From: an uncultured Paracoccaceae bacterium
Lineage (GTDB): Bacteria > Pseudomonadota > Alphaproteobacteria > Rhodobacterales > Rhodobacteraceae
Assembly (NCBI GenBank): GCA_947494675.1
Contig: CANLVP010000001.1
Coordinates: forward strand, 1,624,001-1,688,000
Length of the DNA: 64,000 nt
Direction of reading: 5' to 3'
The notes under the pieces are model-generated. The model saw nothing but the letters and a program-made list of their open reading frames with translations, was not told where the DNA came from and ran no database searches. Of the stretch, positions 33,958-44,523 are shown piece by piece. Numbering within the stretch: the first letter of the stretch is position 1; the number at the start of each line of letters is the position of its first letter. The position numbers and the translations under genes were made by a program.

Positions 33958-34980
33958 ATGCACCTCGCACGTTACCCCCGTCAATTTCTCGCCCATCTTC
34001 CGACCCCGCTTGAACGCCTTGACCGGCTGACCGCTGAATTGGGGGGTCCCGAAATCTGGATCAAGCGGGATGATTGCACTGGCATGTCCACGGGCGGCAA
34101 CAAGACCCGCAAGCTGGAATTCCTGATGGCCGAGGCCATGTTGCAGGGCGCAGACATGGTGATGACCCAAGGGGCGACACAGTCCAATCATGCTCGCCAG
34201 ACCGCGGCCTTTGCTGCAAAGCTGGGCATGGGGTGCCACATCCTGCTGGAAGACCGCACCGGATCAAACAACGCCAATTACAACAACAACGGCAATGTCC
34301 TGCTGGACCATCTGCATGGCGCGACCACCGAAAAGTTCGCGGGCGGTCTGGATATGAATGCCGAGATGGAAAAAGCCGCCGATCGCATCCGGGCCACCGG
34401 CGAAAAGGTCTACACTATCCCCGGCGGTGGGTCGAACGCGACGGGTGCCTTGGGCTATGTCAATTGCGCGTTTGAGATGCTGAGCCAGTTCAACGAACGC
34501 GGCCTGAAGATCGACCATATCGTGCATGCGACCGGCAGCGCGGGCACACAGGCCGGGCTGATCACAGGGCTGAAAGCCACCAACGCACAAATCCCGCTGC
34601 TGGGTATTGGCGTGCGTGCGCCAAAGAAGAAGCAGGAAGAAAACGTGTTCAATCTGGCCTGCGCGACCGCCGACAAGCTGGGCTGCAACGGCGTTGTCCA
34701 GCGCGAAGACGTTGTCGCGAACACCGATTACGTCGGCGAAGGCTATGGCATCCCGACCGAAAGCGGGCTGGAAGCGATCAAGATGTTTGCCGAGCTTGAG
34801 GCGATCCTGCTTGACCCGGTGTATTCTGCCAAAGGGGCTGCGGGCTTCATCGATTTGATCCGCAAGGGCCACTTCAAAAAGGACGAAAAGGTCGTCTTTT
34901 TGCACACCGGTGGCTCTGTCGCGCTCTTTGGTTACGACGCTGCCTTCGACAACGCAGATCGCTGGCAATCGGCGGCCTAA
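33958..34980 (+). CDS. cuyA: L-cysteate sulfo-lyase (CuyA), D-cysteine desulfhydrase family
   Basis: A 340-residue PLP enzyme of the ACC deaminase/D-cysteine desulfhydrase family. The PLP lysine is in [17 protein letters not shown] (near residue 51), followed by [20 protein letters not shown] and the phosphate-binding [13 protein letters not shown]. Family members that cleave cysteate release sulfite and 2-aminoacrylate, which becomes pyruvate and ammonia. The choice of cysteate over D-cysteine rests on context: neighbours include an HpsN-like dehydrogenase, a YeiH-type exporter and a TRAP transporter. ATG at 33958 with GGAG 8 nt upstream. First gene of a six-gene operon. Confidence 0.85.
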
Positions 34981-34981
34981 C

Positions 34982-36193
34982 ATGAACAAGCGGTTTTCTG
35001 GATCTTTCACGCAACAATCTGATCTGCCCGAAGCCTCCCACCGGGCAGCAGAGAGGGTTCTGAGAACCGCGGCCCTTCATCGCTATCAAAGCGATGAAGG
35101 GCAATTGTCTGAAACTGCGCTGCTTGAACAGGCGTTTGCGGCATGGCAGGGCAGTGCGTTTTGCATCGCACTGGCGTCGGGTGGACAGGCCATACAACTT
35201 GCGTTGCGAGCCGTTGGCGTGACAGCGGGTGACCCGGTTCTGACCAATGCCTTTACGCTTGCGCCCGTACCCGGCGCGATCTGGGCGGTGGGTGGAAAAC
35301 CGGTTCTGGTTGAGATCACCAAAGACTTGGTGATCGATCTGGATGATCTGTGGGCTAAAATTGCGTCATCCGGCGCAAAGGTGCTGTTGCTGTCGCATAT
35401 GCGCGGTCATCTTCCCGACCTGACCGAGATCACAAAGATTGCAAGCGCGGCAGGTGTCACCGTGGTTGAGGATTGCGCGCATACGATGGGGGCCACCTGG
35501 CGCGGTCAAAAGAGCGGCAACTTTGGCGCGTTCGGCTGCTTTTCGACCCAGACCTACAAGCATATGAATTCTGGCGAAGGCGGGCTTTTGACCACCGATG
35601 ATCCCGCACTTGCGGCCAAGGCGATGATCATGTCGGGGTCCTATATGAATTATACGCGCCACGGCACCGTGCCTGACCCGGAGCATTTTGCCGACGCGAT
35701 CTATGATTGTCCCAACATGTCCGCACGCATGGACAATCTGCGCGCCGCCGTTTTACGGCCACAGCTTGCGCAGCTTGATGATGCGGTCATCGGCTGGACC
35801 CGTCGGGCTGAGATTATTCTGCGCAGCTTGGGGCAACTCTCGCCTGATGTGCATATCCCTATGCCATTGGACGGCGCATTCCGGGTCGGCAGTTCCATCC
35901 AGTTTAGCCTGCCCGGCCGGACCCCGGCGCGCTGTCAGGCCGTCGTGCGTGATCTTGCTGCGCGGGGGGTTGAGGTGAAATGGTTCGGCCATGTGGAGCC
36001 GCATGGCTTTACGTCACAACACCGGCATTGGCGCTATGTGCAGGCGCAGGCATTGCCGCAGACCGATGACATTCTGCGCAGCCTGTTCGACATGCGGGTG
36101 CCGCTTCGCTTTGGCGAGGACGACTGTCGGCTGATCGCAGAAATCCTGTGCGAAGTCCTACAGGCCCATGCCACAACAGGAGAGGCCGCATGA
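34982..36193 (+). CDS. DegT/DnrJ/EryC1/StrS-family aminotransferase
   Basis: A 403-residue PLP aminotransferase of the sugar-type class (fold type I). The PLP lysine is in FSTQTYKHMNSGEGGLLTT (near residue 190), EDCAHTMGATW precedes it, and NMSARMDNLRAAVLRPQL is the usual region after it. Family members exchange amino groups on keto-sugars or other small carbonyl compounds. It starts 1 nt after the cuyA stop codon and its end overlaps the racemase start (ATGA), so it belongs to the operon. In this setting it might move an amino group to or from a C3 sulfonate; the true substrate is unknown. Confidence 0.85.
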   Translation: MNKRFSGSFTQQSDLPEASHRAAERVLRTAALHRYQSDEGQLSETALLEQAFAAWQGSAFCIALASGGQAIQLALRAVGVTAGDPVLTNAFTLAPVPGAIWAVGGKPVLVEITKDLVIDLDDLWAKIASSGAKVLLLSHMRGHLPDLTEITKIASAAGVTVVEDCAHTMGATWRGQKSGNFGAFGCFSTQTYKHMNSGEGGLLTTDDPALAAKAMIMSGSYMNYTRHGTVPDPEHFADAIYDCPNMSARMDNLRAAVLRPQLAQLDDAVIGWTRRAEIILRSLGQLSPDVHIPMPLDGAFRVGSSIQFSLPGRTPARCQAVVRDLAARGVEVKWFGHVEPHGFTSQHRHWRYVQAQALPQTDDILRSLFDMRVPLRFGEDDCRLIAEILCEVLQAHATTGEAA

Positions 36194-36915
36194 CACCTGG
36201 CCCGATTGGTATCTTGGGCGGGATGGGTCCGCAGGCGACCATTCTGCTGCAGGAACGTCTGGTGCGCGCGATCCCTGCCACGGATGATGCAGATCACATT
36301 CCGCTGTTGGTTGATATGAACCCAAGGGTGCCATCCCGCATAAAATGGCTGATCGAAGGACGCGGCACCGACCCGACCCCGGCCTTGGTTGCGATGGCGA
36401 AGCGGCTTGAATCCGCAGGCGCCACCGCTTTGGCGATGCCCTGCAATACCGCCCATGCCTTTGCTGATGACATCACCGCAGCAATCGACATCCCGTTTCT
36501 GAACATGCCGCAATTGGCCGCCGCGTTTGTCGCGCACAAAATCCCAGCAGGCAGCGCGGTTGGCATCCTTGCATCGCCCGCCACCCAAAAGACAGAGCTG
36601 TTCAAATCCGTGTTGGCCCCGCACGGGCTGACCGCGATTTATCCGGACAACAATGATCCGCTGCTGACTGTCATCAAGGAAATCAAGGCAAGCGGGCCGA
36701 CTGAGAGACACATCAGGCTGTTGAACGACACCGCAGCGGACTTCGCCCAGAACGGGGCCACTGCGATCCTGGTTGGGTGTTCGGAATTTTCCCTCATCAG
36801 CGACAAGATGACGGCCGCTGTTCCGGTCATCGATACGTTGAATGTCCTGACCCATCATCTGGTGGATTTCGCGACCAATTGCATCGCCAAGCCCGTTCAT
36901 GCCGTGCCGTCCTGA
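36190..36915 (+). CDS. aspartate/glutamate-racemase family protein, possible cysteate racemase
   Basis: A 241-residue member of the PLP-independent Asp/Glu racemase family. IGILGGMGPQATILLQERL opens it; the two catalytic cysteines are in ALAMPCNTAHAF (near residue 87) and ILVGCSEFSLIS (near residue 197). Aspartate racemases invert the alpha carbon of an acidic amino acid; cysteate is the sulfonate analogue of aspartate, so in an operon with cuyA and an HpsN-like enzyme it is a good candidate for D-/L-cysteate interconversion. This is inference. It overlaps the upstream gene by 4 nt. Confidence 0.85.
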   Translation: MTPGPIGILGGMGPQATILLQERLVRAIPATDDADHIPLLVDMNPRVPSRIKWLIEGRGTDPTPALVAMAKRLESAGATALAMPCNTAHAFADDITAAIDIPFLNMPQLAAAFVAHKIPAGSAVGILASPATQKTELFKSVLAPHGLTAIYPDNNDPLLTVIKEIKASGPTERHIRLLNDTAADFAQNGATAILVGCSEFSLISDKMTAAVPVIDTLNVLTHHLVDFATNCIAKPVHAVPS

Positions 36916-36962
36916 TCCGCCTCAACCCTGAACCGACCTCTTGCCAACCAAAGGGCCCAACT

Positions 36963-38261
36963 ATGTCTCATACCTACTTGAAAAAAGCGGTGCTTACTGC
37001 CGAAACCGATGCAGAGAACGTGCGCGACATCGTGGAAAACCTGCTTGAGGATATCAAGCGCGGTGGCGAGGATACGGTGCGCGAACTAGCGCTGAAATTC
37101 GACAAATGGGACGGCGACATCGTTGTCTCCGCCGAACAGATCGCAGAGGCCGAAAAGCAGGTCCCAGACAGCCTCAAGCGGGACATCCAGTTTTCGCACG
37201 ACAACATTCGCCGCTTCGCGGAGCAGCAGCTTTCGACCATGCAGGATTGCACGTTAGAGGTGGTTCCGGGGTTCGTTGTCGGCCAAAAGCAGATCCCGAT
37301 TGAAGCGGCGGGGTGCTATGTGCCGGGCGGGCGCTACAGCCATCTGGCCAGCGCCATCATGACGGTCACCACCGCCAAGGTCGCGGGCGTCAAACATATC
37401 ACGGCGGTCTCTCCGCCGCGTCCGGGGGGCGGTATCCCCCCTGCCATCCTTTATACGCTGAACCTGTGCGGCGCCGATCGGATTTTGAACCTTGGCGGGG
37501 TGCAGGGCATCGCATCGATGGCGCAGGGGCTGTTTGGTTGCGAAAAAGCAGCGATCCTTGTTGGCCCCGGAAACCAGTTTGTGGCCGAGGCCAAACGTAT
37601 TCTCTTTGGCGAGGTCGGGATCGACATGTTCGCCGGACCCACCGACAGCCTGATCATCGCAGATAAAACAGCAGACCCGGCGCTGGTCGCGGCAGATTTG
37701 GTCGGGCAGGCCGAACACGGCTACAATTCGCCCGTTTGGCTGATCACCGATGATAAGGCGCTGGCGAACGAGGTCATGGACCGCGTGCCGGGGCTGATTG
37801 CAGACCTGCCAGAGCTGAACCGGATCAATGCCGAAGCGTCCTGGCGCGACTATGCCGAGGTGATCTTGTGCTCAGATCGCGAAGAAATGCGCAAAGTGGC
37901 CGACCAATATGCGCCGGAGCATTTGCAGGTCATGGCGGATGATCTGGATTGGTGGCTTGGCGCGCTGCGCAACTATGGGTCCCTGTTTCTGGGCGAACAT
38001 ACGACGGTGGCTTTCGGTGACAAATCCGCGGGCACCAATCACGTCCTGCCGACCAGCGGGGCCGCGCGCTATACCGGTGGTTTGTCAGTCCACAAATTCG
38101 TCAAGACCGTGACGTGGCAGCGCGCCGATGCGCAGGGCATGCGCCCCGTCGCCGAGGCCACAGCGCGGATTTCACGGTTTGAGGGCATGGAAGGCCACGC
38201 CCGGACCGCCGCAGATCGTCTGCAAAGATACTTTCCGAATGAAGAGTTCGAACTTGGATAA
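36963..38261 (+). CDS. HpsN-like sulfonate alcohol dehydrogenase (histidinol dehydrogenase family)
   Basis: A 432-residue histidinol dehydrogenase homologue; the family performs a two-step, NAD-dependent oxidation of a primary alcohol to a carboxylate. Zinc ligands are visible in LVGQAEHGYNSP (Gln, His), AFGDKSAGTNHVLPTSGAAR (Asp) and GMEGHARTA (His); the catalytic Glu-His pair is in YAPEHLQVM. It is not in a his operon. HpsN, a homologue, oxidises 2,3-dihydroxypropanesulfonate to sulfolactate. Here, with cuyA and a racemase, an amino-alcohol sulfonate (cysteinolate) oxidised to cysteate is plausible. ATG at 36963 after AAAGGG. Confidence 0.85.
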   Translation: MSHTYLKKAVLTAETDAENVRDIVENLLEDIKRGGEDTVRELALKFDKWDGDIVVSAEQIAEAEKQVPDSLKRDIQFSHDNIRRFAEQQLSTMQDCTLEVVPGFVVGQKQIPIEAAGCYVPGGRYSHLASAIMTVTTAKVAGVKHITAVSPPRPGGGIPPAILYTLNLCGADRILNLGGVQGIASMAQGLFGCEKAAILVGPGNQFVAEAKRILFGEVGIDMFAGPTDSLIIADKTADPALVAADLVGQAEHGYNSPVWLITDDKALANEVMDRVPGLIADLPELNRINAEASWRDYAEVILCSDREEMRKVADQYAPEHLQVMADDLDWWLGALRNYGSLFLGEHTTVAFGDKSAGTNHVLPTSGAARYTGGLSVHKFVKTVTWQRADAQGMRPVAEATARISRFEGMEGHARTAADRLQRYFPNEEFELG

Positions 38262-39279
38262 TCAACTCACCCGACGCAAGCTCGACCAGCTTTTTGGCTG
38301 GGCCGAACTTAATCTGCGGCTCAGCCATTGGAGGGGTATTTCCGTGGCCCTGATGGTGGCCGCAACGGCCACCTTTCTGTCCGAACATTACGGCGCGCCG
38401 ACAATGCTGTTTGCCTTGCTGATCGGGCTGTCGCTGGGGTTTCTGGCCGATGTGCCCGCGCTGGAAGGCGGGCTGAACTTTTCGGCCAAGACCATCCTGC
38501 GCCTTGGCGTGGGCCTATTGGGGATCAGGCTGGGCTTTGAAGACGTGCAGGCCGTGGGTGGCGCGTCGATCATGGCGGTCTTTGGCATGGTGCTGGCCAC
38601 CCTGATCTGCGGTGTCATTCTGTCCTATGCGGTGGGACGGAAAGTTGCGTTTGGCGTTCTGTCAGGCGGCGCGGTTGCGGTCTGCGGTGCCTCTGCGGCT
38701 TTGGCGTTTTCGTCGGTCCTGCCGGATCGCCCGGACCGCGAAAAGGATACGGTGCTGGTCGTCATTTCGGTCACGCTTTTGTCGACTGTCGCGATGGTGC
38801 TGTACCCGATCCTGTTTCAATTTCTGGGCTATGACGATCTGGCGACAGGGTTCCTGATCGGGGCGACCATTCACGATGTTGCGCAGGTCGTGGGCGCGGG
38901 CTATTCCGTCAGTGACGACGCGGGCTTGACGGCGACATTGGTCAAGATGCTGCGGGTCGCGATGTTGCCGGTTCTGGTGCTGGCGATCCATTTGATGTTC
39001 CATGACAGTCAGGACAAGAAATCCCCGTTTCCGTGGTTCCTGATCCTGTTCATCGCATTGGCCGTCTTGCGCTCGCTGGTCGATATCCCCGAACACATCA
39101 TCCATCTGGTATCGGAAACGGCGCGCTGGATGATGGTCGCGGCCATCGCCGCCATCGGGCTGCGCACCAATCTGGGATCGGTGTTGCGGGTGCATCCATC
39201 CCTGATGATCATTCTGGCGGTCGAAACCCTGTTCCTTTTGGGGCTGGCGCTGATATTCACCAATTATTTCCTGACCTGA
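38239..39279 (+). CDS. cuyZ: YeiH/UPF0324-family membrane protein, putative sulfite exporter
   Basis: A 346-residue polytopic membrane protein (about 10 predicted helices) of the YeiH/UPF0324 family. Typical segments are LRLGVGLLGIRLGFEDV, FGVLSGGAVAVCGASAALAF and LIGATIHDVAQVVGAGYSVS. I recall a homologue next to cuyA in another roseobacter being named CuyZ and proposed to export sulfite. The start ATG at 38239 lies 23 nt inside the 3' end of the dehydrogenase gene, implying coupling. It could protect the cell from sulfite released by CuyA. Confidence 0.82.
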   Translation: MKSSNLDNQLTRRKLDQLFGWAELNLRLSHWRGISVALMVAATATFLSEHYGAPTMLFALLIGLSLGFLADVPALEGGLNFSAKTILRLGVGLLGIRLGFEDVQAVGGASIMAVFGMVLATLICGVILSYAVGRKVAFGVLSGGAVAVCGASAALAFSSVLPDRPDREKDTVLVVISVTLLSTVAMVLYPILFQFLGYDDLATGFLIGATIHDVAQVVGAGYSVSDDAGLTATLVKMLRVAMLPVLVLAIHLMFHDSQDKKSPFPWFLILFIALAVLRSLVDIPEHIIHLVSETARWMMVAAIAAIGLRTNLGSVLRVHPSLMIILAVETLFLLGLALIFTNYFLT

Positions 39280-39289
39280 GGCTGCGATC

Positions 39290-39646
39290 ATGACCACACC
39301 AATTCACCGCCATCAAGGCACGGGCCGGATGAGCCGGATCGTTGAACACAACGGAACGATCTATCTGTGCGGTCAGGTGGGCACGCGCGGGGATTCCGTT
39401 GCCGATCAAACGCGCCAAACCCTGCAAAAGATCGAGGACCTGTTGGCCTCTGTCGGGAGCGATAAGAACCGCATCCTGTCAGCGACAATCTGGCTGGCGG
39501 ATATGGCTGATTTTGCGGAAATGAACGCGGTATGGGACGCTTGGGTTGAACCGGGCCACGAACCGGCCCGCGCCTGCGGCGAGGCAAAGCTGGCGAGCCC
39601 GGAACTTGCCGTTGAGATTTTGATCGTGGCGGCGTCTGGGGCTTAG
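39290..39646 (+). CDS. RidA-family enamine/imine deaminase
   Basis: A 118-residue YjgF/YER057c/UK114 family protein. VEHNGTIYLCGQVGTRGDSV and EPARACGEAKLASPELAVEI (with the conserved Arg) fit the family. RidA hydrolyses reactive 2-aminoacrylate-type enamines; CuyA releases exactly such an intermediate when it removes sulfite from cysteate, so its position as last gene of the operon makes sense. It starts 10 nt after the exporter gene and is convergent with lysR (4-nt overlap). Confidence 0.9.
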   Translation: MTTPIHRHQGTGRMSRIVEHNGTIYLCGQVGTRGDSVADQTRQTLQKIEDLLASVGSDKNRILSATIWLADMADFAEMNAVWDAWVEPGHEPARACGEAKLASPELAVEILIVAASGA

Positions 39647-40563
39647 TCTAAATCCAGCTCGGACGAGTGCTGCATCGCCTCCCAAAATTCTTCGGCGCGT
39701 GGCGGCAGGTCGCGCCTCATCCGCGCGATCACCACGTTCAATTCAAATCCAGGCAGGAAGTGGTCCATCTGGGTCAGCGCAACGGAATCCAGGTCGGATT
39801 TGACGATCATGCTGGGCAGCCAGCCGACACCCAACCCGCGCCGCACGAATTCCACAAGCGCGAGGCTAAGACCCGTCTCGGCGACGCGGATCAGTTGCGT
39901 CGATTGGTTTGTCCGGTTCGCAAGCAGCTTTTGCAGGACCTCGCCCAGAAAGATCGACGACGGGTAGGCCACCATCGGAAGCGAGCCTGCGATGTCGTCA
40001 GTCAAGGCAGGATCTTCATAGGCCGGGGCAAGGCCGGTTTTGATGACCGGGATGAACTTTTCGCGGCCCAAGATCAGACGGTCACAGAATTCTGGATCAA
40101 TCTCGGGGTCCTCGCCAGCCATTTCGTAGATCAGGGCAAATTCGGCCTCTTGTTTCATAATGGCCATAAGGCATTCGCCTTTGCGTCCTGATTTGATGCG
40201 CGCGTTGGAATTACTGTCCAAAGCGGAATGCATCAAAAGCTGCGGCGCGACGGATGCGGTCAGCGCGTGTTGGCAGATCAATGTGATGCGCTTGTTCAGG
40301 TCAACTTCTGGCTCTGACAAAAGCTGGCGGACGCGGCGCAACTCGGCCGCTGATTTCCGGAGTGTGGGCAGAATATCTCGCACGTGCCGCTTGAGCACGA
40401 TGGGCTTTTTGGTGCGGTCAAACAGCTCGCAACCAAGCGTCTCCTCAATCATCCGAATGCGCCGGGTGAAGGCCGAGGGTGTCAGGAAACGCGCCTCAGC
40501 CGCGGTGTTGAAAGACCCCATCTCGGAGACCGCAAGTATATCTTCTATCCACTCGAGTCGCAT
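39643..40563 (-). CDS. LysR-family regulator of the sulfonate cluster
   Basis: A 306-residue LTTR. The N-terminal winged HTH (about residues 1-60) reads WIEDILAVSEMGSFNTAAEA and FLTPSAFTRRIRMIEETLG, and the effector domain follows. It sits between the two operons of the cluster, convergent with ridA and divergent from the TRAP genes. Its start codon is 10 bp from a 40-bp site that recurs before cuyA, so autoregulation plus control of both operons is likely. The inducer is probably the sulfonate or its breakdown product. Confidence 0.92.
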   Translation of the reverse strand: MRLEWIEDILAVSEMGSFNTAAEARFLTPSAFTRRIRMIEETLGCELFDRTKKPIVLKRHVRDILPTLRKSAAELRRVRQLLSEPEVDLNKRITLICQHALTASVAPQLLMHSALDSNSNARIKSGRKGECLMAIMKQEAEFALIYEMAGEDPEIDPEFCDRLILGREKFIPVIKTGLAPAYEDPALTDDIAGSLPMVAYPSSIFLGEVLQKLLANRTNQSTQLIRVAETGLSLALVEFVRRGLGVGWLPSMIVKSDLDSVALTQMDHFLPGFELNVVIARMRRDLPPRAEEFWEAMQHSSELDLD

Positions 40564-40573
40564 GGCACCTATC

Positions 40574-40613
40574 TTGCAAAAATGGAAACTTAGTTGAGGT
40601 TTTTCGAACTTGA
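40574..40613 (+). promoter_or_regulatory. 40-bp conserved operator, copy 2 (lysR-dctP gap)
   Basis: Ungapped relative of 33868-33907 (TTGCAA, TGGAAACTTA and TCGAACTTGA blocks at the same spacing). It lies 10 bp from the lysR start codon and 170 bp before dctP in the 220-bp divergent gap. It probably binds the LysR protein and controls both directions. Confidence 0.75.
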
Positions 40614-40783
40614 GTTAGCCCTCAACTCTGACAGATTGAAATATAAGCAATTAGGGGCCTATAGCAAGATCAACTGGGCACAGCTCGCAAAGCCAAAAAA
40701 AGGCATTGCGAGGACGGTCTCTGGCTGCGAAATGTCACCTTCCTTGGTGGCGAAACTGGTCCGACTGACAAGGAGACTCCCCA

Positions 40784-41803
40784 ATGAAGTCCTTCAAATT
40801 TCCCTCCACCATGATGGCAGCTGCTGCCGTCGCAGCACTTTGCCTCGCGGCACCGGCGTCCGCCAAAAACTTCAAAATCGCAGTTGGCGACAGCGCCGGC
40901 AGCACGCAAGAAGTGGGCGGCCTGGCGTTCAAAGACAAGCTCGAAGAACTGTCGGGTGGTGAACATACCGCAACGCTGTTCCTGGGCGGTCAGCTGGGGT
41001 CCGAGCAGGACACCGTCAACGATGCGGCCATCGGCACATTGGACATGTCCATCCTCGCGATCAACAACATCACGCCGTTCTCCCCGCGTGTTGGTGTTCT
41101 GTCATTGCCCTACGCCATGCTGAGCCTTGAAGATGCCGAAACCCTTACACAGGGCGCGATTGGTGATGAGTTGATCGAAGCCACAATCGAAGATGCAGGC
41201 GTGCGCATCATCGGCTGGACCTATGCCGGTTTCCGCCGTTTGACCAACTCGCAGCGCCCTGTCCGCACTGTAGAAGACCTGCAGGGTCTGGTGATCCGCG
41301 TTCCCAAGAACGAAATCATGATCGACACCTACAAGGCCTGGGGCATCAGCCCGACACCGATGGCGTGGTCTGAAACCTTTGCTGCGCTGCAAACCAAGGT
41401 CGTTGACGGGCAAGACACCCCCTACATCACGATCAACGCGATGAAGTTCTATGAGATTCAGCAATACGCGACCAACCTGCGTTACCTGTTCCTGATCGAA
41501 CCGCTGATCATTTCCGAGCAGGTGTTCCAGGACCTGTCCGAAGAAGACCAGAACATAATCCTTGCCGCTGGTCAGGCCGCAACCGAGGCATCTGCCCAGT
41601 ATCTGCGTGACCAAGAGGCTTCGATCCAGGAACAGCTGGTCGCAGAGCACGGCATGGAAATCGTTGACGCCGCAAACGACGAAGCGGAATTCATCGATCT
41701 CGCAACCTCGGCAGTCTGGCCAAAGTTCTATGACAGCGTCGGCGGCATCGAAAAGGTGAACGCCATGCTGGCAGCCATCGGCCGCGAACCGGTCTCTGAA
41801 TAA
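40784..41803 (+). CDS. dctP: TRAP transporter substrate-binding protein (DctP family)
   Basis: A 339-residue periplasmic receptor. Signal peptide MMAAAAVAALCLAAPASA; mature protein from KNFKIAVGDS. The usual core segment LQGLVIRVPKNEIMIDTYKA carries the Arg that in this family binds the acidic group of the ligand, followed by GISPTPMAWSETFAALQTKV and VDGQDTP. In the divergent operon of the sulfonate cluster, it likely captures the anionic sulfonate substrate. AAGGAGA precedes the start codon. Confidence 0.92.
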   Translation: MKSFKFPSTMMAAAAVAALCLAAPASAKNFKIAVGDSAGSTQEVGGLAFKDKLEELSGGEHTATLFLGGQLGSEQDTVNDAAIGTLDMSILAINNITPFSPRVGVLSLPYAMLSLEDAETLTQGAIGDELIEATIEDAGVRIIGWTYAGFRRLTNSQRPVRTVEDLQGLVIRVPKNEIMIDTYKAWGISPTPMAWSETFAALQTKVVDGQDTPYITINAMKFYEIQQYATNLRYLFLIEPLIISEQVFQDLSEEDQNIILAAGQAATEASAQYLRDQEASIQEQLVAEHGMEIVDAANDEAEFIDLATSAVWPKFYDSVGGIEKVNAMLAAIGREPVSE

Positions 41804-41816
41804 GAAACCAAACCGG

Positions 41817-41842
41817 GAAGGGCGCCTGAATGGGCGCCCTTC
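41817..41842 (+). terminator. hairpin between dctP and dctQ (attenuator or RNA-stability element)
   Basis: Perfect 10-bp stem GAAGGGCGCC / GGCGCCCTTC with a 6-nt loop, 13 nt after the dctP stop codon and 24 nt before dctQ. No U-tract follows, so partial termination or 3' protection of a dctP mRNA is more likely than full termination. This would give more receptor than membrane subunits. Confidence 0.7.
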
Positions 41843-41865
41843 GTCAATCCGCACAGGGGGCGACC

Positions 41866-42426
41866 ATGTCGAAATTCTGGCACTTTGTTGATCACATCGA
41901 AAGCTACATTTGTCGTACGCTTTTGAGCATCTTTGTATGTTTGCTGTTTGTGCAAATCATTGCCCGCACAGCGTTCAACTTTTCCTTTTCATGGGTCGAA
42001 GAGCTTTCGGTCTATATGTTCGTTTGGTTCGTTTTCTTCGGGGCAAGCTATGCGGCCAAGATGGGGGCCCATAACCGGGTCACGTTCCAGCTGAAAATCT
42101 TTCCGTCCAGTTGGCTGAAATACATCGAGGCCATCGCTGACCTCTTCTGGATCTTTTTCAACGTCTACTTCGTCATTCTGGCGCTGGACTTCATCTTTAA
42201 CCGCATGAACCGTTTCCAGTCGTCGCAGACGATGGGGTTCCATCTGAGCTGGGTCTACATCGTGCTGCCCATCGCGTTTTCGTTGATGACGTTCCGCATC
42301 CTTCAGGTGAACTACAAGCGGCTCATCCTCAAGCAAGAGCTGAAGGACCCCGACGCCATCGATCTTGAAGAGTTGAAAGCGGAAGTCACTGAACCGCAAA
42401 ACACCCAACCAAACGAGGGCAAGTAA
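41866..42426 (+). CDS. dctQ: TRAP transporter small permease (DctQ)
   Basis: A 186-residue membrane protein with four predicted helices; SKFWHFVDHIESYICRTLLS, FSFSWVEELSVYMFVWFVF and GASYAAKMGAHNRV (the last two near residues 42-75) are typical of DctQ. The C-terminal tail is acidic. AGGGGGC is 4 nt upstream of ATG at 41866. Its stop codon overlaps the dctM start (TAATG). Confidence 0.92.
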   Translation: MSKFWHFVDHIESYICRTLLSIFVCLLFVQIIARTAFNFSFSWVEELSVYMFVWFVFFGASYAAKMGAHNRVTFQLKIFPSSWLKYIEAIADLFWIFFNVYFVILALDFIFNRMNRFQSSQTMGFHLSWVYIVLPIAFSLMTFRILQVNYKRLILKQELKDPDAIDLEELKAEVTEPQNTQPNEGK

Positions 42427-43766
42427 TGGCTGGCGAAATTATCCTTATTCTCTTCGGGGGCTTCCTGTTCCTGTTGCTCATCGGCGCCCCAATCACGGTT
42501 GCATTGGGTGTCTCAACACTTCTCTCCTTCCTCTATCTTGGCGAAAACCCGATCAAATTCGTCCAGATCGCCTATACCTCTGTCGGGTCATTCCCGCTGA
42601 TGGCGCTTCCTGCCTTTATCCTTGCAGGCGCGCTAATGGAGGCGGCAGGGTTATCAAGGCGATTAATCAACGTGGCCGAAAGCTTCGCAGGTCCCTTTAC
42701 TGGGGGCATGTCTGCGGCAACCGTCTTTGCCTGTCTGTTCTTTGGCGCAATTTCTGGTTCGGGTCCGGCAACAACAGCGGCCGTTGGTATGCTGATGATC
42801 CCAGCGATGATCCAACGTGGCTATGGTCGCCCGTTTGCCTCGGCCGTCACGGCGTCGTCGGGCGGTTTGGGGATCGTGATCCCGCCGTCCATTCCGCTGA
42901 TCATCTACGGCATTGCCGCACTTGGCATGCCCGCCCCGCCCGAGGCCATCGCAGAACACGGCGTGTTCCAGACGGTTTCGATCCCCAAGTTGTTCATCGC
43001 GGGCTTCATGCCAGCCTTTGTCATCGCGGGTAGCCTTTTGATCATGAACTACATCCTGTCGCGCAAACACGGCTATTCGGGGTCGAGCGAAGGTTGGTCG
43101 GCGCGCAATATCCTGTGTGAATTCTATCGCGGGTTCTGGGCGCTGATGGCACCTGTCGTGATTTTGGGCGGTATCTATTCCGGCTTCTTCACCCCGACCG
43201 AGGCCGCCATTGTGGCCATCTTCTACACGCTGGCGGTGGGCACGTTTATCTATCGCGAACTGTCCTGGTCGAGCCTTTTTGGCGCGTTGGAGACGACCAC
43301 CTGGCTTACGGGCCGTGTGTTGTTGATCATGTTTACAGCAACCGTGTTCGGGCGGCTTTTGGTGGAAAACCAAATCCCCGCGCTGATTGCCGAAGGCATG
43401 TTGTCGGTCACGGACAATCGTTATGTGATCTGGACGCTGGTGATCATGTTCCTGCTGTTCGTCGGGATGTTCATGGAAACGCTGGCAACGATCCTGATCC
43501 TTGTGCCGGTGATGCTGCCGGTGGCCTATTCGATGGGCATCGACCCGATCCACTTTGGTGTCGTGATGGTCTGTACTTTGGGGATCGGCTTTCAAACACC
43601 GCCCTTGGGTGAGAACCTGTTCATCGCCTCGGGCATATCAAATATCACGATTGAGCGGATATCGATCGCGGCACTGCCATTTGCCTTTATCAACACGCTG
43701 GCAATCTTCGTGATCGCCTTCTTCCCTGAAATATCGCTCTGGCTGCCAAGGGTCCTTGGATACTGA
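42426..43766 (+). CDS. dctM: TRAP transporter large permease (DctM)
   Basis: A 446-residue integral membrane subunit with about 12 helices, energised by sodium gradients in studied members. GAISGSGPATTAAVGMLMIP, SGGLGIVIPPSIPLIIYGIA, GGIYSGFFTPTEAAIVAI and TLGIGFQTPPLGENLF are diagnostic. It completes the dctPQM set and overlaps the dctQ stop codon. Confidence 0.96.
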   Translation: MAGEIILILFGGFLFLLLIGAPITVALGVSTLLSFLYLGENPIKFVQIAYTSVGSFPLMALPAFILAGALMEAAGLSRRLINVAESFAGPFTGGMSAATVFACLFFGAISGSGPATTAAVGMLMIPAMIQRGYGRPFASAVTASSGGLGIVIPPSIPLIIYGIAALGMPAPPEAIAEHGVFQTVSIPKLFIAGFMPAFVIAGSLLIMNYILSRKHGYSGSSEGWSARNILCEFYRGFWALMAPVVILGGIYSGFFTPTEAAIVAIFYTLAVGTFIYRELSWSSLFGALETTTWLTGRVLLIMFTATVFGRLLVENQIPALIAEGMLSVTDNRYVIWTLVIMFLLFVGMFMETLATILILVPVMLPVAYSMGIDPIHFGVVMVCTLGIGFQTPPLGENLFIASGISNITIERISIAALPFAFINTLAIFVIAFFPEISLWLPRVLGY

Positions 43767-43785
43767 ATCTGGAAAGGATTTGAAT

Positions 43786-44274
43786 ATGTTACCGGACATC
43801 AAGCACGTCTTGTTCGCAACAGACATGTCTGAAAACGCAGACAGCGCATTGAGATACGGCCTGTCGCTTGCAAAAGCGACAGGAGCCGCCGTGCATGTGC
43901 TGAATGTGGCCGAGCCCTTGTCCCAGGATGCCCATGCAACGCTCAGCATTTTTGTGCAGGACAAAGAGCTTCGCAAAAAGGCCATTGGTGATCGCCACGA
44001 AGCGATGCGCACGATGTTGAAGGACAGCCAAAAGCGATTTCTGGCGGCTTTGCCGGATGACGAAAAGGACACCTATCAGCTTATCAGCTCTGTTGAGCTG
44101 GCAGAGGGGAACCCGGCGGAGACGATCCTGCAAAGGGCCAAAAAGCTGGACTGCGATCTGATCGTCATGGGGTCTCATGAACACAGCACGAGCCATACGT
44201 TTCTGGGCACCGTGACCAAGCGCGTGCTTCGGCGATCATCAATACCTGTGCTTGTCGTGCCGGCTGGGGAATAA
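43786..44274 (+). CDS. universal stress protein (UspA family)
   Basis: A 162-residue cytoplasmic protein. It starts with IKHVLFATDMSENADSALRY and ends with the nucleotide-binding segment VMGSHEHSTSHTFLGTVTKR and VLRRSSIPVLVVP (the G-2x-G-9x-G(S/T) type region is partly kept). It follows dctM after 19 nt; TRAP operons frequently end in a usp gene, and in one studied TRAP system such a protein binds the binding-protein/transporter unit. ATG at 43786 follows GGAAAGGA. Confidence 0.88.
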   Translation: MLPDIKHVLFATDMSENADSALRYGLSLAKATGAAVHVLNVAEPLSQDAHATLSIFVQDKELRKKAIGDRHEAMRTMLKDSQKRFLAALPDDEKDTYQLISSVELAEGNPAETILQRAKKLDCDLIVMGSHEHSTSHTFLGTVTKRVLRRSSIPVLVVPAGE

Positions 44275-44523
44275 CGTTTCGGGTTTCTTGGACGGTGGCG
44301 ATCCATGCGTGTGCGGGCAGATGTGAGTAGATCTTGCCCGCGACCATGTTCTTGCGGGTAGAATGCTGCTGCCAGCGTGTCGGGGGCTGCGGAGCGCCCT
44401 GTTCTGCAACGTAGTCCATGCCCCGTCGCTGACTTTCCGGCCCCGATCGTTCAGTTAACTGCTTTGTGAATGTCAGGGCGCGTGCCATAATTTCCGGAAA
44501 TACTCTGGGGAGGGTCACGCGTT

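Follow-up and report, generated by a model that had tools for sequence, protein, structure and literature searches.

The analysed window, 64,000 nucleotides of an uncultured Paracoccaceae bacterium (assembly GCA_947494675.1, contig CANLVP010000001.1, positions 1,624,001 to 1,688,000), contains a six-gene operon, cuyA-degT-cuyB-hdh-yeiH-ridA (33958-39646), in which all genes are encoded on the plus strand and neighboring genes overlap or lie at most 47 bases apart. The operon is followed by a lysR gene and by the dctPQM-usp operon, which encodes a tripartite ATP-independent periplasmic (TRAP) transporter. Together, these genes are considered here as a candidate catabolic pathway for cysteinolate (2-amino-3-hydroxypropane-1-sulfonate). 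The features of the region, in window coordinates, are the following:

33958..34980, plus strand: cuyA, pyridoxal phosphate enzyme of the D-cysteate sulfo-lyase family (NCBIfam NF052482, 552.7 bits, cut-off 450; ATG start with GGAG upstream); predicted to convert cysteate to 2-aminoacrylate/pyruvate, ammonia, and sulfite
34982..36193, plus strand: DegT/DnrJ/EryC1-type aminotransferase (PF01041, 194.8 bits, cut-off 19.8)
36190..36915, plus strand: cuyB, cysteate racemase family, two cysteines (NCBIfam NF052483, 269.1 bits, cut-off 190)
36963..38261, plus strand: hdh, HpsN-like enzyme of the histidinol dehydrogenase (HDH) family (PF00815, 448.6 bits); proposed cysteinolate 3-dehydrogenase
38239..39279, plus strand: yeiH-type putative sulfate/sulfite exporter (PF03601, 207.8 bits, cut-off 24.5; TIGR00698 below cut-off)
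39290..39646, plus strand: RidA-family protein, proposed 2-aminoacrylate deaminase (PF01042, 93.3 bits, cut-off 27.3)
39643..40563, minus strand: LysR-type regulator, proposed for both operons (PF00126 and PF03466 over cut-off)
40784..41803, plus strand: dctP, TRAP solute-binding protein (NF037995 and PF03480 over cut-off)
41830..42426, plus strand: dctQ, TRAP small permease (NF007374, 42.6 bits, under cut-off; assigned by its position between dctP and dctM)
42426..43766, plus strand: dctM, TRAP large permease (TIGR00786, 380.8 bits, cut-off 268.45)
about 43786..44274, plus strand: usp, for a universal stress protein, last gene of the TRAP operon (PF00582, 106.1 bits, cut-off 24; ATG at 43786)

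All genes named in the initial annotation of this region were recovered at their positions by open reading frames (ORFs) and NCBIfam and Pfam profiles. Both CuyA and CuyB score above the equivalog cut-offs that NCBIfam sets for D-cysteate sulfo-lyase and cysteate racemase, respectively. Members of the Asp/Glu racemase family carry two catalytic cysteines, and the CuyB translation contains both of the stretches in question, MPCNTAH and VGCSEFS, in agreement with the previous description of a two-cysteine racemase. At an E-value of 1e-5, the entire 64-kb window yielded no relatives of HpsO, HpsP, SlcD, SlcC, SuyB, or ComE. Sulfolactate dehydrogenases had been described as absent, which holds for the cluster but not for the genome: none is encoded in the window, but an SlcD homologue is part of an HpsO-HpsP-SlcD set on contig C3.

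Among solved structures, the window dehydrogenase matches HpsN best (Ruegeria pomeroyi 8wwe, 634.8 bits; Cupriavidus pinatubonensis 8v35, 527.4 bits), whereas histidinol dehydrogenases reach 261.5 bits at best. In an alignment of 69 cuy-context dehydrogenases (window enzyme included) and 38 hps-context dehydrogenases, numbered according to C. pinatubonensis HpsN (CpHpsN), the equivalents of R123, H126, Q248, H251, E318, H319, D352, and K353 do not vary across the 107 proteins. The equivalent of H411 is present in 69/69 cuy rows and 37/38 hps rows; the exception is the chain from R. pomeroyi, which is too short to cover that position. PMC11382572 assigns the CpHpsN residues to zinc binding, catalysis, and the H126-type sulfonate motif. 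In the alignment, the window enzyme retains its zinc ligands and the Glu-His residues reported earlier. HisD shares its family and zinc site with the window enzyme, and it converts an amino alcohol into an amino acid, as is proposed here for the window enzyme. However, HisD of the host carries tyrosine at the equivalents of the sulfonate-binding residues H126 and K353, where the window enzyme has histidine and lysine. An assignment as histidinol dehydrogenase was rejected on these residues. Because the HpsN residues are kept in all 69 cuy-context rows, the enzyme should accept a sulfonate and not histidinol.

The host genome encodes four HDH-family proteins: HisD, an HpsN-clade protein (L086) whose gene adjoins a ComE homologue (74% identity), the window enzyme, and a paralogue of 45% identity (L005:1435-2766; G000 C3:156907), which lies between two ORFs that are SnoaL-like by eye. 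A quick tree of 109 dehydrogenases and a careful tree of 43 rows were calculated. Matches with fewer than 330 aligned residues (split or partial loci such as L016, L022, L029, and L161) were excluded, and further rows were dropped (L003, a copy of L086; sequences below 400 residues; exact duplicates; L107, the same gene as L162; and L169). The cuy label changes three times on the 109-row tree, or twice if two rows that belong to neither group are disregarded, compared with a mean of 32.8 changes for shuffled labels. Except for Cupriavidus, the hps rows form one clade with a Shimodaira–Hasegawa-like approximate likelihood ratio (SH-aLRT) support of 94, which is adjoined by two Paracoccus cuy rows (99). 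This clade includes R. pomeroyi HpsN and the second copy of the host genome, and the window enzyme is located outside; in the 43-row tree its support is 96/92. Placing the window enzyme and the hps rows in a single clade was rejected in the approximately unbiased (AU) test on the 43-row tree (p-AU 0.004), although p values for these groups are optimistic because the groups were defined after the quick tree had been seen. A single clade of all cuy rows was not rejected (p 0.22), yet it is not demonstrated by the tree either. At columns separating the two groups, the window enzyme departs from the hps residue at positions 26, 48, 142, 165, 216, 321, 336, and 381. Judging from these trees, the window dehydrogenase is a branch separate from the alphaproteobacterial HpsN clade.

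The gene company of the dehydrogenase was surveyed in 394 genomes of the family, the host genome included, in which matches were detected for the dehydrogenase in 159 genomes (E 1e-170), for CuyB in 83 (1e-45), and for CuyA in 106 (1e-120). From the 85 CuyB places in these 83 genomes, 80 regions of 3.7 to 16 kb, limited by contig ends, were fetched; the window and single places in G224, G241, G281, and G393 were left out. CuyA is encoded in 67 of the 80 regions, the dehydrogenase (at least 50% identity) in 45, both in 41, DegT in 17, and RidA (at least 60% identity) in five. HpsO, HpsP, SlcD, SlcC, SuyB, and ComE were found in 0/80 fetched regions at an identity of at least 45%. With four HDH-family genes per 3.92 Mb, about 1.3 of 80 16-kb regions would be expected to contain a dehydrogenase gene by chance. 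A strong dehydrogenase match was present in 142 plasmid records, 18 of which were opened. The dehydrogenase is accompanied by CuyA and CuyB homologues in ten of these, in which HpsO and HpsP were not found, and by HpsO and HpsP homologues in eight, several of which add comDE, suyAB, or a sulfolactate dehydrogenase candidate. DegT is present in nine of the ten cuy plasmid records, the exception being a Ruegeria plasmid with CuyA-CuyB-HDH; six of the ten have tauA or a closely related gene for a taurine-type importer. The excess over the chance expectation in the CuyB regions and the plasmid contexts indicate an association of the dehydrogenase with cuy genes beyond chance.

Two layouts were observed among the relatives. 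The first consists of a TauABC-like importer, LysR, an oxidoreductase with flavin adenine dinucleotide (FAD) and GcvT domains, CuyA, DegT, CuyB, and the dehydrogenase; the second of LysR, CuyA, DegT, CuyB, a TauABC-like importer, the dehydrogenase, and YeiH. The LysR genes of other clusters, 28-37% identical to that of the window, are divergent from cuyA. The FAD/GcvT-domain oxidoreductase (approximately 811 residues, sarcosine-dehydrogenase-like) is found just before cuyA in L007, L008, L010, L013, L018, L020, L024, L026, L027, and L044, with one ORF between both genes in L008; in L097 (640-3075), a locus of Leisingera methylohalidivorans DSM 14336 with the core enzymes of the window cluster, a regulator lies between. 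Its position hints at an N-methylated aminosulfonate as substrate for that layout. In L213 (G003 C1), a distance of about 1.6 kb separates a weak CuyB relative (40%) from a homologue (75%) of Xsc, the sulfoacetaldehyde acetyltransferase. Even among close relatives the cluster appears patchy, judged from G333, the sole other genome of the same genus in the survey.

A dehydrogenase that forms sulfolactate would require a sulfolactate-using enzyme in the same genome, and such enzymes were therefore searched for in the 45 genomes with a cuy-associated dehydrogenase. Strict thresholds were 60% identity for SlcD, 55% for SlcC, and E 1e-90 for SuyB; loose thresholds were 44% for SlcD and 37% for SlcC, and HpsP was called at E 1e-70. 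Controls were 27 of the 28 hps-context genomes among the 29 best dehydrogenase matches outside the host (G313 was excluded, as it belongs to the cuy group); they are the best-scoring genomes and not a random sample, and seven of them (G371, G089, G230, G183, G038, G186, and G066) also have a CuyB place whose fetched region shows no dehydrogenase. At the strict thresholds, SlcD was detected in four, SlcC in one, and SuyB in two of the cuy-dehydrogenase genomes (any of them in 6/45, none in 39/45; neither a close SlcD nor SlcC in 40/45). In contrast, 21 of the 27 HpsN-containing controls have a sulfolactate enzyme and six have none (Fisher p 9e-8), with the reservation that genomes as incomplete as 64% (controls) and 74% (cuy set) could hide genes in either group. 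HpsP was detected in 7/45 cuy-dehydrogenase genomes. Of the 38 without a match, SlcD, SlcC, or SuyB is present in one at the strict and in 15 at the loose thresholds. As close relatives of the sulfolactate enzymes are rare in the cuy genomes and a separate HpsN is present in the host, the window dehydrogenase probably produces cysteate directly, which points to cysteinolate as its substrate.

The initial annotation had the racemase working from D- to L-cysteate, a direction that has to be reversed. NCBIfam curates the CuyA family as D-cysteate sulfo-lyase and, according to PMC11382572, CuyB interconverts L- and D-cysteate and CuyA prefers D-cysteate. The crystal structure reported in the same source shows L-cysteate, which inhibits CpHpsN with a half-maximal inhibitory concentration of 2.4 mM, in essentially the same pose as the product R-sulfolactate. 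HpsN-type enzymes yield an R product, which is L-cysteate-like, and the racemase would therefore run from L to D. By Cahn–Ingold–Prelog reasoning, R-cysteinolate would correspond to R-2,3-dihydroxypropane-1-sulfonate, and its oxidation would give L-cysteate. CuyB is thus most likely to operate in the L-to-D direction, and its presence is accounted for if the dehydrogenase delivers L-cysteate and CuyA needs the D-enantiomer.

The role of DegT is less constrained. The window protein shares 51-57% identity with nine DegTs from cuy clusters elsewhere, and the stretch TYKHxNSGEGG is common to all ten. DegT as a required core step was rejected, as it is missing from 34 of the 45 regions with CuyB and dehydrogenase and accompanies both in 11. 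Conversely, DegT without the dehydrogenase occurs in six of the 80 CuyB regions, three of which stop at a contig end. Gene calling of the fetched regions of L137 (G346 C19), L146 (G371 C13), and L173 (G083 C36) gave CuyA-DegT-CuyB but no dehydrogenase, an arrangement suggesting that DegT may act on cysteate and not in the dehydrogenase step. A DegT scan yielded 522 relatives. Among the best 80 loci, CuyA is nearby in 24, with the dehydrogenase in 19 of these (two split) and one weak partial match in addition; the remaining 56 show no CuyA within the fetched stretch. A DegT paralogue (54-58% identical) occupies a conserved place at about 30 of the 80 loci, including L030, L054, and L060, where the neighbors are glmU- and glmS-like by their N-terminal letters only. 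The genomic context of these commonest relatives within the best 80 loci gave no clue to the substrate of DegT. The names listed for the closest solved structures of DctP and DegT likewise held no clue to the substrate of either protein.

The TRAP transporter was compared with those of other clusters. DctP is 43% identical to the DctP of a cuy cluster in Pseudomonas sp. MPC6, compared with 23% (local) to that of a DHPS-type TRAP system (DHPS, 2,3-dihydroxypropane-1-sulfonate); the values for DctM are 58% and 34%. Since this relative is located among the same genes in Pseudomonas sp. MPC6, the TRAP operon of the window is tied to the pathway. The G+C content is 0.59-0.61 in the cuy operon and about 0.55 in the TRAP operon (window 40000-44500); this composition is not conclusive, but given the gap the two operons may have been joined from different sources. 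A scan for regulatory sites gave five promoter-like sites (shuffled mean 4.2) and 17 terminator-like sites (11.8, sd 3.9) and was not used in the argument.

The cluster is best explained as a catabolic pathway for cysteinolate, a reading to which we assign a probability of roughly two in three. We infer the substrate, the cargo of importer and exporter, and the direction of each step as follows. The TRAP system would import cysteinolate. The HpsN-like dehydrogenase would oxidize the alcohol to L-cysteate in two NAD+-dependent steps, as histidinol dehydrogenase does with its amino alcohol. CuyB would then convert L- to D-cysteate, from which CuyA would release sulfite and 2-aminoacrylate. The latter is proposed to be hydrolyzed by RidA to pyruvate and ammonia, and YeiH would export sulfite or sulfate. 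The LysR protein is the putative regulator of the pathway, and DegT may be accessory, with a possible role in the interconversion of cysteate with sulfopyruvate or of cysteinolate with its ketone. On the basis of gene content, cysteinolate is the substrate that would make every core gene necessary and leave no step missing. In line with the initial suggestion, cysteinolate or a close C3 aminosulfonate alcohol remains the best substrate reading and gains support from the comparative data.

Several observations weigh against this assignment. Homologues of HpsO, HpsP, and SlcD (76, 70, and 73% identical) are encoded together on contig C3 of the host (L215). The window enzyme agrees with the hps residue at the CpHpsN equivalents 16, 29, 357, 391, and 422, and the one row that it matches best, at 71% identity, comes from an hps context. 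No single clade with support unites the cuy-context dehydrogenases, and none of the neighbors of the window row in the tree is well supported. In 35 of the 80 CuyB regions, several of which are cut by contig ends, no dehydrogenase is seen, and the same-genus genome G333 lacks a match to CuyA or CuyB at the survey thresholds (1e-120 and 1e-45). At the loose thresholds, a possible sulfolactate enzyme is found in 20/45 cuy genomes (26/27 controls, p 3e-6). TauA-type and related solute-binding proteins (45% identity) are each encoded in 7/80 regions, five and six of which, respectively, contain the dehydrogenase. As these genes occur in just 14/80 regions, the transporter argument rests on a minority.

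A plain DHPS pathway was made less probable by the gene company, the separate HpsN-clade gene, and the tree. The CuyA branch of DHPS breakdown deserves closer consideration, although we regard it as unlikely. Here, the HpsN-like enzyme would form R-sulfolactate, an unlinked SlcD sulfopyruvate, and DegT L-cysteate for CuyB and CuyA. This branch is described in PMC11382572, according to which the R. pomeroyi genes for its aminotransferase and its racemase are not known. Both activities are expected in it, and the initial placement of racemase and aminotransferase outside DHPS breakdown was therefore abandoned; their presence alone cannot exclude DHPS. The branch would give DegT an obvious role, the active site of the window dehydrogenase equals that of HpsN, and the set on contig C3 means that a DHPS route is at least partly encoded in the host genome, apart from the window cluster. 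DHPS is nevertheless disfavored because hpsO, hpsP, and the sulfolactate enzymes are absent from the clusters (HpsO, HpsP, SlcD, SlcC, and SuyB in 0/80 CuyB regions) and from most genomes, and because the host already has a separate HpsN-clade gene beside comE. Of the 38 of 45 cuy-dehydrogenase genomes without HpsP, 37 (strict) or 23 (loose) have no SlcD, SlcC, or SuyB. In addition, DegT is absent from 34/45 regions, and the TRAP system of the window is unlike the DHPS-type one.

It is improbable, too, that the cluster serves cysteate itself and that the dehydrogenase is a side entry for a minor or different substrate. CuyA, CuyB, an importer, and an exporter would suffice for cysteate, and the 35 regions without a dehydrogenase in the fetched stretch fit such a use; however, the dehydrogenase is kept in 45 regions, and its catalytic residues in all 69 cuy-context rows. 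A modified aminosulfonate alcohol, for example, N-methylated or acylated cysteinolate that is first freed to cysteinolate, is a still more remote candidate for the natural substrate: the sarcosine-dehydrogenase-like FAD/GcvT protein stands directly or one gene before cuyA in type A clusters (two before in L097), but the window cluster has no gene of this type. A biosynthetic direction, in which cysteinolate is supplied to a roseobacter sulfur aminolipid or solute pool, is hardly credible, even though R. pomeroyi is reported to contain cysteinolic acid made by an unknown route (PMC8319176) and the compound is reported as the head group of an aminolipid (PMC11631085), for a desulfonating lyase, an exporter, RidA, and an importer in one cluster favor breakdown.

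The cysteate pathway of D-cysteate sulfo-lyase CuyA and cysteate racemase CuyB was reportedly described by Liu et al. in J Biol Chem in 2024. The window cluster encodes the same lyase and racemase families over the curated cut-offs and, beyond this lyase and racemase pair, contains genes for an HDH-family dehydrogenase, DegT, RidA, and a TRAP importer. It shares with the DHPS pathway hpsNOP, as given in PMC11382572 and PMC11131964, a close dehydrogenase homologue with the same active site, but it lacks hpsO, hpsP, and a sulfolactate enzyme, and its dehydrogenase lies outside the alphaproteobacterial HpsN clade. Cysteate is likewise a roseobacter nutrient in R. pomeroyi, where the four-gene transporter cuyTUVW takes the place of the TRAP system found here and is described as (nearly) unique to R. 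pomeroyi among the strains compared (PMC10130141). According to PMC8703288, cysteinolic acid is widespread as a solute in algae, and its concentrations can be similar to those of dimethylsulfoniopropionate and DHPS. Its occurrence, possible bacterial consumption, and unknown biosynthesis are treated in six sources (PMC8703288, PMC9695272, PMC8319176, PMC8027193, PMC11631085, PMC11131964). Genes for the catabolism of cysteinolate or cysteinolic acid were not met in the literature searched, as far as its texts were available, and the route may have been proposed earlier. The cluster would extend the already known CuyAB pathway by a dehydrogenase entry, and its novelty is relative to the literature searched.

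A bolder interpretation, which we consider doubtful, is that the cluster represents the first recognizable gene set for bacterial cysteinolate use, with a dedicated cysteinolate 3-dehydrogenase. Amino-alcohol oxidation might then be the older activity in the sulfonate branch of the histidinol dehydrogenase family, with DHPS dehydrogenase derived from it, and the demethylase-bearing type A clusters would point to an unreported natural N-methylated cysteinolate. Cysteinolate is an abundant sulfur- and nitrogen-rich compound of ocean algae and, if the proposed pathway is true, the cluster supplies missing genes of a large marine sulfur flow. The enzymes mostly labeled hisD in plasmid records would split into two predicted functions, and a recognizable gene set would allow metagenomes and transcriptomes to be read for the flow of cysteinolate.

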